Of a stretch of DNA of 64,000 nt, positions 20,089 to 25,699 are shown piece after piece. The notes under the pieces were generated by a model that saw nothing but the letters and a program-made list of their open reading frames with translations, had not been told where the DNA came from and did no database searches. Both the position numbers and the translations under genes were made by a program. The DNA comes from Prochlorococcus sp. AG-402-M23 (lineage in GTDB: Bacteria > Cyanobacteriota > Cyanobacteriia > PCC-6307 > Cyanobiaceae), in contig QCIR01000001.1 in the NCBI GenBank assembly GCA_003216575.1, positions 1 through 64,000 of the forward strand, written 5' to 3'. Numbering within the stretch: the stretch's first letter is position 1; the number at the start of each line of letters is the position of its first letter.

Positions 20089-20235
20089 CTAATCTTTCTT
20101 TCCTTTTAAAATCATTATTAATGGTACTCCGACTGTAAATACTATCCCTATGGTTAAGATGATCAAACCAATTGGGGAAAGTATGTCTACTCCTCCCAAA
20201 ACTTCGTATCCTTGTTGGGTTGTAGTAAGAAACAT
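20089..20235 (-). CDS. one-helix membrane protein, 48 aa
   Basis: ATG 20235 overlaps the stop of the upstream ligase-like gene by one base (TAATG). The protein has a polar start (FLTTTQQGYEVLGGVD), one helix (SPIGLIILTIGIVFTVGVPL) and a Lys-rich end. It resembles small photosystem-associated subunits in layout but I cannot name it. Translational coupling to a ligase-like protein is the only context. Confidence 0.55.
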   Translation of the reverse strand: MFLTTTQQGYEVLGGVDILSPIGLIILTIGIVFTVGVPLIMILKGKKD

Positions 20236-20921
20236 TAATTTATGGCGTATGCCCAATGCATTGATAGATTATTCTCTCCAAGATACTTTTGTAATTTTCT
20301 TGAATTGATTTTCAATACTATTCCGTTTGTTGGATAGCGTTTAAATAATTTACCCTCTTTCCAACATTGCAGATAGATTTCAATATCTGAAATAAAGTTT
20401 GTAAATTGAGTTTGTGGAATTTCGAAATTTAGGTTTTTTAATTCTTGAAGTGCTTGAAATTGATTGATTTTGCAATGAAATATTTGAAAAGCACAGAATC
20501 TAAGTCTTTTATTTTGCTGTATTGATTTTTGAATTCCTATTATTTTAATTTTATTATTCTGGTTTGATTTAGTTTGATCATCGTATAGAACTCCTCGTAT
20601 TTCAATTCGATTTTTTAGTGGTAGGCGTTTAGGAATATTTTTTAGAGAACTTATACTGTCGGTTATGTCGTCACTATTTTCATTTATTGCTTTGTTTAAT
20701 TTTCCATCGATATATTGAATGCCAATACTTGATCCGATGATTTTTGGTTCTAATATTATTCTTGTATTCGGAAGAAGTGACTCCAACCATTCACGAATAT
20801 TTCCTTGACTTAATGATAAGAAGGCTTTTCTTCCAGATTTGTAATTAAAGATTGAACTTTCTGGTGATACCCTCTCCAGATTCTTTATAAGATGATTTGA
20901 GACTTCATTTTTTTTCTTCAT
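20235..20921 (-). CDS. orphan LigA-adenylation-domain-like protein (paralogue 1)
   Basis: The 228 residues follow the order of motifs in the nucleotidyltransferase domain of NAD-dependent DNA ligase: EPKIIGSSIGIQY (LigA: EPKxDG), RIEIRGVLYDD (LigA: LEVRGEV), RFCAFQIF, YPTNGIVLKI (LigA: DGVVxKV) and HWAYAIN (LigA: WAxAxK). K60 of motif I is kept, but Asp of KxDG is Ile, Asp of DG is Asn and the last motif Lys is lost. There is no OB fold, zinc finger, HhH or BRCT. A second copy is at 25097-25699. Activity unknown; ligation is unlikely. Confidence 0.72.
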   Translation of the reverse strand: MKKKNEVSNHLIKNLERVSPESSIFNYKSGRKAFLSLSQGNIREWLESLLPNTRIILEPKIIGSSIGIQYIDGKLNKAINENSDDITDSISSLKNIPKRLPLKNRIEIRGVLYDDQTKSNQNNKIKIIGIQKSIQQNKRLRFCAFQIFHCKINQFQALQELKNLNFEIPQTQFTNFISDIEIYLQCWKEGKLFKRYPTNGIVLKINSRKLQKYLGENNLSMHWAYAIN

Positions 20922-21011
20922 CTTTCAGTCCTATATTTAAACATTCTAGTTTGTTGTTTATTATGGTAGACAAATTTAATATAGATCTATTTTCTTTTTC
21001 TAAGATCATAA

Positions 21012-21269
21012 ATGAGCCGATATTATTGCCCATTCTGCTCTTCTCGTTACCAATTTCATAAGACTAGGAGTGAGGGTGTTTTGATTTGTGGTCAGTGTGG
21101 AGACCCATTAATGAAAAAAAATTTCATAAATACTAGACAAATTTTTGGAGCAGTTGCCGCTTCAGCATTTTTAGCTCCCTTATTAATTATGATTATTTTC
21201 GTGATTAATGATCTTAATAAGGAAAAACCTCTAAGAAATTCTGAATCAGTAGTCGTATTAAAATTTTAA
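21012..21269 (+). CDS. zinc-ribbon membrane protein, 85 aa
   Basis: The N-terminus has CPFC and, 20 residues later, CGQCG, a four-Cys zinc ribbon. A transmembrane helix (about 46-66, GAVAASAFLAPLLIMIIFV) and a short tail follow. The zinc ribbon faces the cytoplasm if the usual topology applies. Two bases separate it from the DUF938 gene, so an operon. Confidence 0.75.
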   Translation: MSRYYCPFCSSRYQFHKTRSEGVLICGQCGDPLMKKNFINTRQIFGAVAASAFLAPLLIMIIFVINDLNKEKPLRNSESVVVLKF

Positions 21270-21271
21270 TT

Positions 21272-21904
21272 ATGGAAAATATTAATTTAGACAACCGATT
21301 AAATTTTCCTGCAACGATAAGGAATCGTGAAGTAATAGCTAAAGTTTTGAGCAATTATATCCCGCCTAATGGTTGCATATTGGAAATAGCAAGTGGAAGC
21401 GGAGAACACGGAGTATTTTTTCAAAAAACATTCCCGTCAATTATCTGGCAAACTAGTGATCCTGAATTAGTGCACAGAAAAAGTATTATTTCATGGATAG
21501 ATCATTACGGACTTTCCTCCAGGATGCCTGAACCACTTGCTGTTGATGTAGAAAAACGTCCTTGGCCAATAAATAAGCAACTTAGACTTTTAATTAAAGG
21601 AATTGTGTGTATTAATATGATTCATATAACGCCATGGAGTTGTACCCAAGACTTTTTTGAAGAATCTAAAACATACTTGAATAAAAATAATTTTTTAATG
21701 CTTTATGGACCTTTTTTCAGAAAGGACATATTAACTTCTCAAAGTAATTTGAATTTTGATAAATCTCTTAAAATGAAAAATCCACTTTGGGGAATACGAC
21801 ATTTAGATAAAGTTAATGAAATTGCAATTAAAAATAAATTTGTGCACGTTAAAACAATTGAAATGCCAGTTGATAACCTTTCAGTGATATATCGCATGAA
21901 ATAA
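21272..21904 (+). CDS. DUF938 family SAM-dependent methyltransferase-like protein
   Basis: The 210-residue product matches DUF938: it starts with NRLNFPATIRNREVIAKVL, has the SAM loop ILEIASGSGEHGVFFQ at about 39-54, and continues WQTSDPELVHRKSI, INMIHITPWS and LYGPF. DUF938 proteins resemble class I methyltransferases; the substrate is unknown. Full length for the family. Confidence 0.88.
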   Translation: MENINLDNRLNFPATIRNREVIAKVLSNYIPPNGCILEIASGSGEHGVFFQKTFPSIIWQTSDPELVHRKSIISWIDHYGLSSRMPEPLAVDVEKRPWPINKQLRLLIKGIVCINMIHITPWSCTQDFFEESKTYLNKNNFLMLYGPFFRKDILTSQSNLNFDKSLKMKNPLWGIRHLDKVNEIAIKNKFVHVKTIEMPVDNLSVIYRMK

Positions 21905-21988
21905 ATTTTCAATTTTCATAATATTTCATAGGGAAAAAGAAAACTAGGCAGCTTTGATAGCACAATAGATTCTACATGCTATTTTTTT

Positions 21989-22261
21989 GTGGATTTTTCA
22001 GGCCCTGATGCAATTGATAAAGCGATTGAAGTCGGATTAGATCTTGATGGGAGCCCTATTCCTTCAGCGATGCTAAATCTCTATAAAGAAGTCATGGATA
22101 AAGAAAACGCTCGAAAAAGGAGTGGAGTAAAGAAATCAATGCGAAACCGAATCGTCAAAACAGGTTCTAAACATTTCGAAAAAGACACTCTCAATTCACT
22201 TTTGATTGACGCTGGCTGGGACGGCTTAAGACCTAAGGAAATAGACTTTTTCTATAATTGA
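21989..22261 (+). CDS. conserved hypothetical protein, 90 aa
   Basis: GTG 21989 opens a soluble protein: DKAIEVGLDLDGSPIPSAML, a basic middle (ENARKRSGVKKSMRNRIVK) and an end LLIDAGWDGLRPKEIDFF. The basic helix suggests nucleic-acid contact, but no domain is recognised. No ATG gives a longer frame. Confidence 0.65.
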   Translation: MDFSGPDAIDKAIEVGLDLDGSPIPSAMLNLYKEVMDKENARKRSGVKKSMRNRIVKTGSKHFEKDTLNSLLIDAGWDGLRPKEIDFFYN

Positions 22262-22510
22262 GTTAAATAATCATAAGATTCAATCCATAGTCATTGAATA
22301 AGTGTCATACATTACTTGCACAATTTAATGATTACTGATTGACGATAATCAACTTTTCGGCCCCTTTTTGTTTTGCTAAAATCCTTCTTATAAGGAGAAT
22401 TTGTATAATTGGATTCATATTTTTATCTTCAATGCGGCAAGCCGTACAAGTCAAACTTTACATATATTAATAATTGATTTACATTTATTTACATAATATT
22501 TTTTCTCACA

Positions 22511-22618
22511 ATGACACCTGAAGCAGAAAAGTTTAATGGCTGGGCAGCAATGCTTGGTTTTGTTGCAGCTTTCGGAGCATATGCAACAACCGGTCAAATC
22601 ATTCCTGGAATTTTCTAA
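22511..22618 (+). CDS. hli: high-light-inducible protein, 35 aa (cluster gene 1)
   Basis: Hli of the short type: TPEAEKFNGWAAMLGFVAAF then GAYATTGQIIPGIF. It is nearly identical to 13612-13719. First of five Hli genes in a row; the gap to the second is 20 bases. Confidence 0.92.
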   Translation: MTPEAEKFNGWAAMLGFVAAFGAYATTGQIIPGIF

Positions 22619-22638
22619 ACCAATAACTACTAATAACA

Positions 22639-22758
22639 ATGCAACCATCTAACAAAACAATCCTAGAAAGAAGCATCGGCAGACCAGCCATGATGGCCTT
22701 CGTTCTACTAACAGGTATCTACCTAACAACCGGTCAACTTATCCCAGGTGTCGTTTAA
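22639..22758 (+). CDS. hli: high-light-inducible protein, 39 aa (cluster gene 2)
   Basis: Hli-type helix with RSIGRPAMMAFVLLTGIYLT and the ending TTGQLIPGVV. The core reads E-R-x-x-G-R-x-A-M, so the Glu and Arg of the chlorophyll-binding motif are present. Its TAA overlaps the next ATG by one base. Confidence 0.88.
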   Translation: MQPSNKTILERSIGRPAMMAFVLLTGIYLTTGQLIPGVV

Positions 22759-22904
22759 TGATTAACCAAACTACTGAAACCCCAAGAGTCGAAGAAGGCA
22801 AAGTCATTGCTGAAAGGTTAAATGGCTACGCGGCATTTGTTGGATGCTGGGCACTAATCGGTGCATATCTAACAACTGGTCAAATCATTCCTGGAGTTGT
22901 GTAA
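22758..22904 (+). CDS. hli: high-light-inducible protein, 48 aa (cluster gene 3)
   Basis: Polar N-terminus (INQTTETPRVEEGKV) and Hli helix AERLNGYAAFVGCWALIGAY, ending TTGQIIPGVV. Start and stop codons overlap both neighbours (TAATG), implying translational coupling. Confidence 0.9.
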   Translation: MINQTTETPRVEEGKVIAERLNGYAAFVGCWALIGAYLTTGQIIPGVV

Positions 22905-23050
22905 TGTCTACCCCCAAAAACTATGCAAAAAACATTGACACTGAAAAGTTTACCGCTGAGAGAGTTAACGGCTACGCTGCATTATTAGGTTGTATTGCAC
23001 TAGTTGGTGCATATATGACTACTGGTCAGATTATTCCTGGTTTTGTCTAA
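22904..23050 (+). CDS. hli: high-light-inducible protein, 48 aa (cluster gene 4)
   Basis: Hli of the same length as gene 3: TAERVNGYAALLGCIALVGA, ending MTTGQIIPGFV. Genes 3 and 4 are likely tandem duplicates. A longer frame upstream (from 22844) would run through gene 3 and is rejected in favour of ATG 22904. Confidence 0.9.
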   Translation: MSTPKNYAKNIDTEKFTAERVNGYAALLGCIALVGAYMTTGQIIPGFV

Positions 23051-23172
23051 TGGACAATAATAACTACTGGAAAATGGCTGAATTGATGAACGGTCGTTTA
23101 GCGATGATGGGTTTATTTGCAGCTGTAATCAACTACGGATTCACTGGGTGGATCATTCCTGGATTTGTTTAA
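23050..23172 (+). CDS. hli: high-light-inducible protein, 40 aa (cluster gene 5)
   Basis: Hli with a divergent helix: WKMAELMNGRLAMMGLFAAV, ending GFTGWIIPGFV. The E-x-x-N-G-R-x-A-M motif is intact. TAATG overlap with gene 4. Confidence 0.9.
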   Translation: MDNNNYWKMAELMNGRLAMMGLFAAVINYGFTGWIIPGFV

Positions 23173-23189
23173 ACACACTATTTACTACC

Positions 23190-23300
23190 ATGGCATTAAG
23201 TTATTGGCTACGTGCAGAAGTCGAAGATCTTTTAAACGAAGATACTTTTTTTGACATCTCTGATTACTCATCACTTCTTGAAGATACTGATTGGGCCTAA
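23190..23300 (+). CDS. small acidic protein, 36 aa
   Basis: ATG 23190: LSYWLRAEVEDLLNEDTFFD followed by an acidic end (YSSLLEDTDWA). It begins 17 bases after the Hli cluster and is probably part of its transcript. No family known. Confidence 0.5.
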   Translation: MALSYWLRAEVEDLLNEDTFFDISDYSSLLEDTDWA

Positions 23301-23305
23301 AATCA

Positions 23306-23437
23306 ATGTTGGGTTTCTCAACGGGAAATAAGTTTTGTTGTCAACTTTGTCAGCAAAATTTTTCAGAATCATGCTGGAGGAGAAAAGGTTTAATCTTATG
23401 CAAAGAATGCTTTGATAAGCTTCAAAAAAACATTTAA
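23306..23437 (+). CDS. small Cys-rich (zinc-ribbon-like) protein, 43 aa
   Basis: The protein has six Cys: CCQLC, then ESC, then CKEC near the end (LILCKECFDKL). Two CxxC pairs separated by about 20 residues suggest a zinc ribbon. Starts five bases after the previous small gene, so in the same operon as the Hli cluster. Confidence 0.55.
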   Translation: MLGFSTGNKFCCQLCQQNFSESCWRRKGLILCKECFDKLQKNI

Positions 23438-23748
23438 GAAGATTATTCAAGTTTTATCTTCATCGTGATTTTCAATTATTTGTTAGAACATTCAACATTT
23501 GATTATTAAGTGACCATTTAATCAAAACAAAGAGTCTAATAGGCTGCTTTCTTAAGCCTTCAATCCATTTTAATAACTAACCCTTCAAATATAATCTATG
23601 ATTGAGGTTTAACCTTTCTATGTTGCTTTTATGTCAATTAGAATTATTGCCAATTAATAATGTGTCATCACTGAGCAATTTAAGTAAGTTATTTTATTTA
23701 TTTTTAACTAATACAGCGTGCTAATTTCTTATCCTTGTTAATTTAGAA
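23438..23748. other. gene-free stretch
   Basis: About 310 bases of AT-rich DNA. A 34-codon frame (from ATG 23620) is Leu-rich and unconvincing. No terminator or RNA structure stood out. Confidence 0.4.
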
Positions 23749-23901
23749 ATGAGTAACATGATTGATAAGATTAAATACTTTTTTCCTTTTGTTGGTATAT
23801 TATCTTGCCCGCTAACAATTTTATTTGTATGGACATTTTTCTCCGTACCAGTGGTTAATTATGAACCTGATTCTGTTCAAGTATTAGAGCCCTTAAATTA
23901 G
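23749..23901 (+). CDS. one-helix membrane protein, 50 aa
   Basis: ATG 23749: a Lys-rich start, one hydrophobic helix (FPFVGILSCPLTILFVWTFF) and an acidic end (NYEPDSVQVLEPLN). Unnamed. Confidence 0.5.
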   Translation: MSNMIDKIKYFFPFVGILSCPLTILFVWTFFSVPVVNYEPDSVQVLEPLN

Positions 23902-23938
23902 TTTTACTAATTGATGATCTATAGTTCAGTAGGTTTGT

Positions 23939-24139
23939 CTAGATGTCAATAAAAAATAGTTGAGTTTGAGCGATTTCTAATGTTAATAGACTTATGGCTT
24001 TTTCCAATTCATCATCAGATATAAATCCTAATACATCTGCTGGCTCCAAACCCAATGAACTGTAATCTGGCTCAATTCCAAATGGTTCTATATTATCTAG
24101 ACATCCAACAATATCTTCAAGTTCTTCTAATTCGGTCAT
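23939..24139 (-). CDS. acidic soluble protein, 66 aa
   Basis: Starts TELEELEDIVGCLDNIEPFG and includes EPADVLGFISDDELEKAISL, all strongly acidic. One Cys. It lies 18 bases downstream of the 24158 gene on the same strand, so the three genes 24730-23939 may be one operon. No family recognised. Confidence 0.6.
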   Translation of the reverse strand: MTELEELEDIVGCLDNIEPFGIEPDYSSLGLEPADVLGFISDDELEKAISLLTLEIAQTQLFFIDI

Positions 24140-24157
24140 GATAATTATTTAAGAATT

Positions 24158-24412
24158 TTAAGAGACTTCAAGTTTGAAACCTTTATCTAAAAGTTGTTGG
24201 TAGGTGAGCCTCGCTTGAAAAGCGAGAATTTCTATGGGCTCTTTATCGTCTCTTTGCATAATGAAATAGTGATTATCTTCACCTTTTCTGGCAAAGATGA
24301 CAATTTCGGAACCTCTAACTAATCTCCAGCAATCTAGAGATTTATGCTCTGATAATGGACCTAAATCCCATGGAGCCTTTTCAGGATACTTCTCTCTTTT
24401 TACCCTTGGCAT
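24158..24412 (-). CDS. conserved hypothetical protein, 84 aa (tandem paralogue A)
   Basis: Soluble: KREKYPEKAPWDLGPLSE, WRLVRGSEIVIFARKG, NHYFIMQRDD and QARLTYQQLLDKGFKL. The next gene (24479-24730) has the same order of motifs: KYPE-x-x-PWDL at the start, an aromatic Y/F-I-x-x-D/N segment in the middle and the ARxTYQ-x-L-x-D-x-G end. Tandem duplication. Function unknown. Confidence 0.68.
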   Translation of the reverse strand: MPRVKREKYPEKAPWDLGPLSEHKSLDCWRLVRGSEIVIFARKGEDNHYFIMQRDDKEPIEILAFQARLTYQQLLDKGFKLEVS

Positions 24413-24478
24413 GTATTGAAAGTGACTATTTCTTTTAGACTACACTTATGAACTGCGACGTCAAGAAATATTTTTTAA

Positions 24479-24730
24479 TCAGGAAATGGCAGCCAATAGA
24501 TATCCATCGTCAAATAATCTTTGATACGTAAATCTAGCTTCATATTCTTTATAAGCTTTACTTTTTTCATCGTTTTTTTGTATGTATACATAGTTATTGT
24601 TCATGCGACTCCTAGTAAATGTGTAAACGATATCAGATTTTGTTAGAACCCATTTAATCGAATTGTCTTTAGATTGTTCAATATTTAAATCCCATGGAAT
24701 ATTCTCTGGATATTTCTCTAATTTTGTCAT
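24479..24730 (-). CDS. conserved hypothetical protein, 83 aa (tandem paralogue B)
   Basis: Paralogue of 24158-24412: KLEKYPENIPWDLNIEQSK, FTRSRMNNNYVYIQKND and EARFTYQRLFDDGYLLA. The motif order is kept while overall identity is modest, so the duplication is old. ATG 24730. Confidence 0.68.
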   Translation of the reverse strand: MTKLEKYPENIPWDLNIEQSKDNSIKWVLTKSDIVYTFTRSRMNNNYVYIQKNDEKSKAYKEYEARFTYQRLFDDGYLLAAIS

Positions 24731-25096
24731 ATAGAACCTAATACCTACTCAAAATATTTCATGCTTCAGCTTTGAACATGAGAATAAATACTGCTTTATA
24801 AAATTGTCTATATTTAATTATTTACTAAATAGATTAAACAATTTATTTTGGATTCATTCAACATTAGTCTATTAAAATATATCAATGTCTACTCATCTCG
24901 ATATATTATTGATCTGATTTAGATCCCATCTGGATTTATCAATTTGAACCGATGTCGAATACTGTTGTATTTTTGATTCATAGTTATAGATTCTTTTTAG
25001 ATTTTTCATTTCTCATTTGATCGTTTTTGATTGATTCCTTAAGAAAAGACGTTAAAGAAGCTACTTTGGCTCACATTTACCTATTGATAGATATAT
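24731..25096. other. gene-free stretch
   Basis: About 365 bases between divergent genes. AT-rich; no coding frame, repeat or terminator was convincing. It must hold the promoters of both the paralogue pair and the ligase-like gene. Confidence 0.4.
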
Positions 25097-25699
25097 ATGA
25101 AACTACTTGGCCTAGATAAGGATTGTTTCTCCAACTGGTGTGCAAAACTACCAGAAGGATCAATTATGGTTGTGCAACCCAAAATTGAGGGATGTGCAAT
25201 TGGGCTTAGATATAAATATGGTCAATTAGTAGATGCTTATTCTCGGGGAAATCCAGAGATTATAGAGATTATTAGAACTATCAATACTATTCCTTTAAGC
25301 ATTGATGATTCTCTAAAAGTGGAAGTTGAGTTAGAAGGCGTTTTATATTCTTCAACAATTTGTTCCGCATTTTCAAAAGGCAAATTTATTGCTAACTCAA
25401 CTATGCCGCTTGTCTCTAATGCAAGTCTTTCTTTTCTAGCATTTCAAATCTTTTCATCAAAATCTGATGAGTTGTCTGATTTGACTCAACTTCAAAAATG
25501 GGGATTTGAGGTACCTATTACTCTAAGAACAAATGATCCTATGCAAGTCAAGAGATGGCATTCTCAGTGGATAAATAATGAATTGTTTTCAAATTTCCCT
25601 ACTAATGGAATCGTCGCCAAATGCAATTCTTTCTCCACTAAGGATTTATTAGGAGTAAGCGCGTCTTCACCTAATTGGGCTCTAGCTTTAACTCGTTAA
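25097..25699 (+). CDS. orphan LigA-adenylation-domain-like protein (paralogue 2)
   Basis: A 200-residue stand-alone relative of the LigA nucleotidyltransferase domain: VVQPKIEGCAIGLRYKYGQL (motif I, K29), YSRGNPEI, VEVELEGVLYSS, FLAFQIF, LQKWGFEVP, NFPTNGIVAKC and NWALALT. Compared with LigA the motif I Asp is Glu, DGxxxK reads NGIVAK and the final Lys is missing. Relative to paralogue 1, the Arg of the ExRG motif is Glu. OB, zinc, HhH and BRCT parts are absent. The shared changes suggest a conserved new role. Confidence 0.72.
   Translation: MKLLGLDKDCFSNWCAKLPEGSIMVVQPKIEGCAIGLRYKYGQLVDAYSRGNPEIIEIIRTINTIPLSIDDSLKVEVELEGVLYSSTICSAFSKGKFIANSTMPLVSNASLSFLAFQIFSSKSDELSDLTQLQKWGFEVPITLRTNDPMQVKRWHSQWINNELFSNFPTNGIVAKCNSFSTKDLLGVSASSPNWALALTR

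Follow-up and report, generated by a model that had tools for sequence, protein, structure and literature searches.

Two short open reading frames (ORFs), P1 and P2, lie in a 64,000-nucleotide stretch of Prochlorococcus sp. AG-402-M23 DNA (assembly GCA_003216575.1, contig QCIR01000001.1, positions 1 to 64,000; hereafter the window). They are probably catalytically dead (pseudoenzymes), and each was probably domesticated independently of the other from a family of stand-alone NAD+-ligase-type nucleotidyltransferases (NTases) without an OB domain. The hallmarks of pseudoenzymes are present in both proteins: the fold of the NTase domain of the DNA ligase LigA is kept, catalytic residues are lost, and the genes evolve under purifying selection. 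Our confidence attaches to the pseudoenzyme assignment, any specific target being rated far lower. The window appears to come from low-light clade I (LLI) of Prochlorococcus or from a very close relative.

Both ORFs are present at the positions and with the lengths given in a first-pass annotation, made by a model from the letters of this DNA. They match PF01653 above the curated cut-off (P1, E 1.3e-16; P2, E 5.8e-19), and no other Pfam family was matched in either. LigA NTase motifs I–V are collinear in each protein, both of which stop at motif V, and ORF lengths and domain searches agree that OB, zinc, HhH and BRCT parts are all missing, in line with the first-pass reading of the motif order. 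AlphaFold models, built from alignments of the NTase family itself, have the LigA NTase fold: the P1 model (mean predicted local distance difference test score, pLDDT, 80.4) matched a LigA NTase domain in Foldseek (E 6e-15), and the P2 model (pLDDT 88.6) superimposed on the LigA NTase of 7k72 with a Z score of 22.6 and a root-mean-square deviation of 2.4 Å over 200 residues. Family assignment, fold and phylogeny together rule out a chance similarity. The same genome also encodes a normal 688-aa LigA on a different contig, and in domain searches the only OB and zinc domains of the genome were those of this LigA.

While P1 and P2 share with the LigA NTase the common fold, the order of motifs and the lysines of motifs I and IV, they differ from it in their active sites. 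The roles of the catalytic residues are those established for E. coli LigA, in which the residues corresponding to the ones lost here are essential. Domain Ia, the NAD+-binding part of LigA, is gone from P2 and reduced to a remnant in P1. Across 24 aligned orthologues (10 of P1, 14 of P2), the RGE Glu of motif III is Val or Ile without exception, Asn (23 orthologues) or Ser (the remaining one) stands in place of the motif IV Asp, and the last Lys of motif V is missing from all except one P1 orthologue; in both proteins, moreover, the AAGxLR segment has been swapped for a hypervariable stretch. The change from DG to NG and the loss of the last Lys had been noted in the first pass, and a homologue search found these substitutions conserved across the genus with few exceptions; the losses of the RGE Glu, the AAGxLR segment and domain Ia had not been part of that reading. 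Its statement that both proteins change the motif I Asp holds for P1 (Ile in 10 of 10) but not for P2, in which this position is Asp in six orthologues, Glu in six and Val in two. The motif I Lys, described as kept, is retained in 23 of 24 orthologues (P2, 14 of 14; P1, 9 of 10, the tenth having Arg), but not throughout the wider family, where Ser or Asp replaces it in four lineages. The motif IV Lys is retained in all 24. Judged by these residues, P1 and P2 are predicted not to be ligases and are probably not AMP-transferases either: having lost domain Ia, both catalytic acids and the Lys of motif V, they would be unable to take up AMP and would hence act by binding.

Codon models, whose omega values are alignment-dependent, returned 0.229 for P1 (10 orthologues), 0.106 for P2 (14 orthologues) and 0.164 for a related copy with complete motifs from high-light Prochlorococcus (12 sequences). 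Fixing omega at 1 (kappa 2.5) cost 94 log-likelihood units for P1 and 353 for P2. When the same six genomes were used throughout, P2 and the LigA NTase domain both gave 0.109, and P1 gave 0.227. Within P2, the hypervariable segment evolves under weaker constraint (omega 0.389) than the flanking parts (0.07–0.09). None of 27 P1 frames contains a stop codon, nor does any P2 orthologue. Both proteins are under purifying selection, P2 as strictly as a real ligase. That the fold is under selection although catalysis has gone suggests that the two proteins work by binding.

Stand-alone relatives of about 190–280 aa are encoded in many genomes of the same taxonomic family, across picocyanobacteria, including many high-light Prochlorococcus, and on about 33 marine viral contigs; in a 244-genome sample of the phylum, the strong stand-alone matches, among the matches listed, all came from this family. 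Phage copies and most high-light or mobile copies are complete, in that they retain KxDG, RGE, AAGxLR, DGxxxK and the final Lys together with a domain-Ia-like N-terminus (YRxG...SDxxFD). No OB domain was matched in 27 viral records, many of which are fragments, and every OB match in 61 genomes of the family lay inside a long LigA frame. As its motifs suggest, the complete, ancestral enzyme would move AMP from NAD+ to its own motif I Lys, forming lysyl-AMP.

Complete copies were found in mobile surroundings (labels beginning with G or L are our own handles). A tyrosine recombinase overlaps the NTase start by 4 nt in one locus (L037:1749-2966; Phage_integrase E 5.9e-6, just under the cut-off), and a homologous recombinase with RHxY and MGH motifs lies beside the NTase in another (L036:4040-5425). 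One complete copy immediately follows tRNA-Pro (L057), and the L061 copy, located after a tRNA-Pro-like stretch, shares its locus with genes for a VapE-type primase, a capsid/prohead protease and a protein resembling excisionases. Viral contigs present a helicase, in some cases a cytosine methylase, a VRR-NUC nuclease, a primase and a minor tail protein, followed by the NTase. Given these recombinase, tRNA-Pro and phage-module neighbors, the complete form therefore belongs to phages and integrative elements, which would have spread the stand-alone NTases. The primase of the NTase-bearing viral contigs resembles those of cyanophages S-LBS1 and S-2L; no annotated stand-alone NTase was found in the parts of these two genomes examined (S-2L, 15–30 kb only).

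In a phylogenetic tree, P1 and P2 clustered with the copies of phages and mobile elements, away from LigA, so the first-pass view of the pair as paralogues of the host LigA was not supported. The sister group of the P2 orthologues consists of complete LLI copies (support 100/98), and P1 orthologues fall into a group of degenerate copies (99/94) nested in a clade (100/100) that also contains complete copies from high-light genomes and viruses. The bootstrap had not completely converged, and the tree includes some long branches. A sister relationship of P1 and P2, as expected from descent from one dead ancestor, was rejected in an approximately unbiased (AU) test (p 0.007; p 0.013 with other degenerate copies included) in which the constrained groups had been named after the first tree had been viewed. 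As the tree places P1 and P2 in different clades, their catalytic losses are, on this phylogeny, parallel and not inherited from a single dead ancestor; the motif IV change from Asp to Asn arose in at least three lineages (the P1 group, P2 and a second high-light copy). The stems of the two groups are long (0.51 and 0.83 changes per site) and their crowns short, a pattern that we read as a shift followed by new constraint.

Other members of the family show further active-site changes. The second stand-alone copy of some high-light Prochlorococcus has NGIV and is without the last Lys, a third independent loss (L041:3508-4257, L045:3081-3830, L048:2960-3709). The motif I Lys itself is lost, to Asp or Ser, in four related copies (L023:1399-2073, L026:1375-2085, L028:1477-2184, L047:3589-4347). 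The motif IV Lys, with the other motifs intact, is replaced by Gln in relatives with larger genomes (L014:1297-2085, L015:1309-2085) and by Thr in a Prochlorococcus subgroup (L061:9989-10711, also L060 and L062). After the overlapping integrase and NTase genes of L037 (1749-6109) comes a gene whose 740-aa product contains DUF4214 and weakly matches cadherin. The gene series of L136:3472-11245 and similar viral contigs comprises a helicase, a C5-methylase, VRR-NUC, a VapE-type primase, a minor tail protein, the NTase and small proteins.

Among 17 near-complete genomes of the genus, 15 contain both genes and two contain neither (P2 presence counted from matches of at least 74% identity), and the gene order around P1 and P2 is conserved in the genus loci examined. 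A DUF938 gene, which neighbors P1 in the window, is found close to related copies in G052 (all motifs intact, recombinase fragment) and G085 as well, which suggests an old common site for P1. Two adjacent small, mutually homologous proteins (E ~1e-12; 24158-24412 and 24479-24730) are conserved beside P2 in the genus and gave no Pfam match, and ORFs resembling high-light-inducible proteins lie between P1 and P2 (22844-23172). The window contains no tRNA genes and no integrase, the single integrase of the genome being on contig 2; no Rfam match was obtained at 17–29 kb of the window, and promoter and terminator patterns were at or under chance level.

Table 1. P1, P2, their active-site motifs and neighboring genes (positions in the window)
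Feature	Position	Strand	Basis
P1, 228-aa stand-alone LigA-type NTase domain, degenerate active site	20235..20921	-	PF01653, AlphaFold2 model with LigA fold, omega
P1 motif V WAYAIN, without last Lys	20238..20255	-	alignments
P1 motif IV NGIVLK (LigA DGxxxK), Asp to Asn, Lys retained	20310..20327	-	alignments
P1 motif III Glu (RGE) to Val	20589..20591	-	alignments
P1 motif I EPKIIG (LigA KxDG), Lys retained, Asp to Ile	20733..20750	-	alignments
Small protein with Zn-ribbon-like start, divergent from P1, conserved neighbor	21012..21269	+	Zn-ribbon matches below cut-off; same order in genus loci examined
DUF938 protein beside P1 in the genus	21272..21904	+	PF06080 E 7.8e-60; synteny
P2, 200-aa stand-alone LigA-type NTase domain, domain Ia absent, degenerate active site	25097..25699	+	PF01653, AlphaFold2 model, omega
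P2 motif I QPKIEG, Lys retained, Asp position varying between orthologues	25175..25192	+	alignments
P2 motif III Glu to Val	25340..25342	+	alignments
P2 hypervariable segment in place of SQRxAAGxLR of complete copies	25352..25426	+	mostly pLDDT <50
P2 motif IV NGIVAK, Asp to Asn, Lys retained	25604..25621	+	alignments
P2 motif V WALALTR, without last Lys	25676..25696	+	alignments

What P1 and P2 might bind is a guess; the likeliest target would be whatever the complete enzyme or LigA binds, i.e. a DNA end, a nucleotide, or a replication or repair partner. They might then serve as non-catalytic modulators or competitors of LigA, of DNA-end processing or of element enzymes. Only tentatively do we put forward that a non-enzymatic pair, domesticated twice from a mobile-element NTase, exerts control through binding, whether over LigA, over nick processing or over incoming elements. 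To our knowledge, no member of the NAD+-ligase superfamily has been described as a regulatory pseudoenzyme. Several observations weigh against the pseudoenzyme interpretation or its extension to a pair acting on elements. Conservation of the motif I and IV lysines in almost every orthologue goes beyond the needs of a pure scaffold. The intervening DUF938 gene, too, is missing from both genomes without the pair, and the co-occurrence may reflect linkage only, i.e. loss of a segment. Finally, G130 carries P1, P2 and a complete copy together, showing that the pair does not exclude elements, and complete-type copies whose motifs were not read accompany the pair in G178, G189 and G202.

A special case of a binding function would be immunity, with the dead copies interfering in a dominant-negative manner with the enzyme of an incoming element or phage. 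At least two derivations from genes of elements or phages, and maintenance as a linked pair, are consistent with this idea, which we nevertheless regard as rather unlikely in view of the coexistence with complete-type copies just described. Less likely still is the altered chemistry envisaged in the first-pass annotation, in which the motif I Lys would continue to accept AMP, from ATP or NAD+, and pass it on to protein or RNA. The retention of the motif I and IV lysines is what such a mechanism would call for, but what NAD+ binding and AMP transfer depend on, namely domain Ia, the RGE Glu, the Asp of DG and the last Lys, has been lost, the P2 motif I Asp position drifts, and the motif I Lys itself was lost in four related lineages. 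The broader first-pass proposal, that the shared changes imply selection for a new function, fits the genus-wide conservation, the lack of decay and the parallel loss of catalysis; it is the new chemistry that is unlikely.

It is very improbable that P1 and P2 are functionless, decaying remnants of mobile-element genes. Their missing catalytic residues and mobile-element origin would fit such a fate, and five stops interrupt a related copy in a different genome (G135), but the intact frames and the constraint on P2, equal to that on LigA, argue otherwise, and the omega tests refute pseudogene decay within the genus. Least probable is a split-ligase subunit that works with a separately encoded partner, as in the T5 or PR1 phage ligases: among annotated phage proteins, T5-type subunits come closest to the complete copies, the PR1 heterodimeric ligase is among the structural matches, and subunit A of such ligases resembles the family as a phage-encoded, separate NTase-bearing polypeptide with domain Ia, but T5 subunit A itself includes an OB domain (PF03120, E 3.8e-22) and has subunit B (HhH, BRCT) adjacent, whereas the stand-alone family ends at motif V with no partner found, P1 and P2 are without catalytic residues, and the OB and zinc searches described above largely refute the idea.

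The pair had been thought undescribed, but its orthologues in NATL2A, at 954713-955315 (P2) and 959226-959912 (P1), with coordinates identical to those in G110, were published in 2018 as LLI-specific "DNA ligase" genes (PMC6102989). DNA ligase is the usual annotation of both genes; in that paper they appear only under this name, read together with DNA repair, and the lost active site is not mentioned. An earlier paper, of 2005, pointed out a truncated ligase in MED4 (PMC1242208), which may or may not belong to the present subfamily. Some high-light clade II (HLII) genomes were reported to be without a "DNA ligase" gene cluster (PMC5804319, PMC9040837), which may or may not correspond to the stand-alone high-light copy. 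In the openly accessible literature, most subscription papers being outside the search, no paper was found that treats proteins of the P1/P2 type as a stand-alone or inactive family. What is new here is the interpretation of the LLI pair, not its existence.

Prochlorococcus gene-content studies count such genes as DNA repair, and the LLI pair at least should not be counted in this way. The wider family adds an OB-less, NAD+-ligase-like predicted enzyme to phages and integrative elements. In P1 and P2, catalysis would have been lost repeatedly, under constraint as strong as that on an essential ligase, in a highly streamlined, abundant phototroph.

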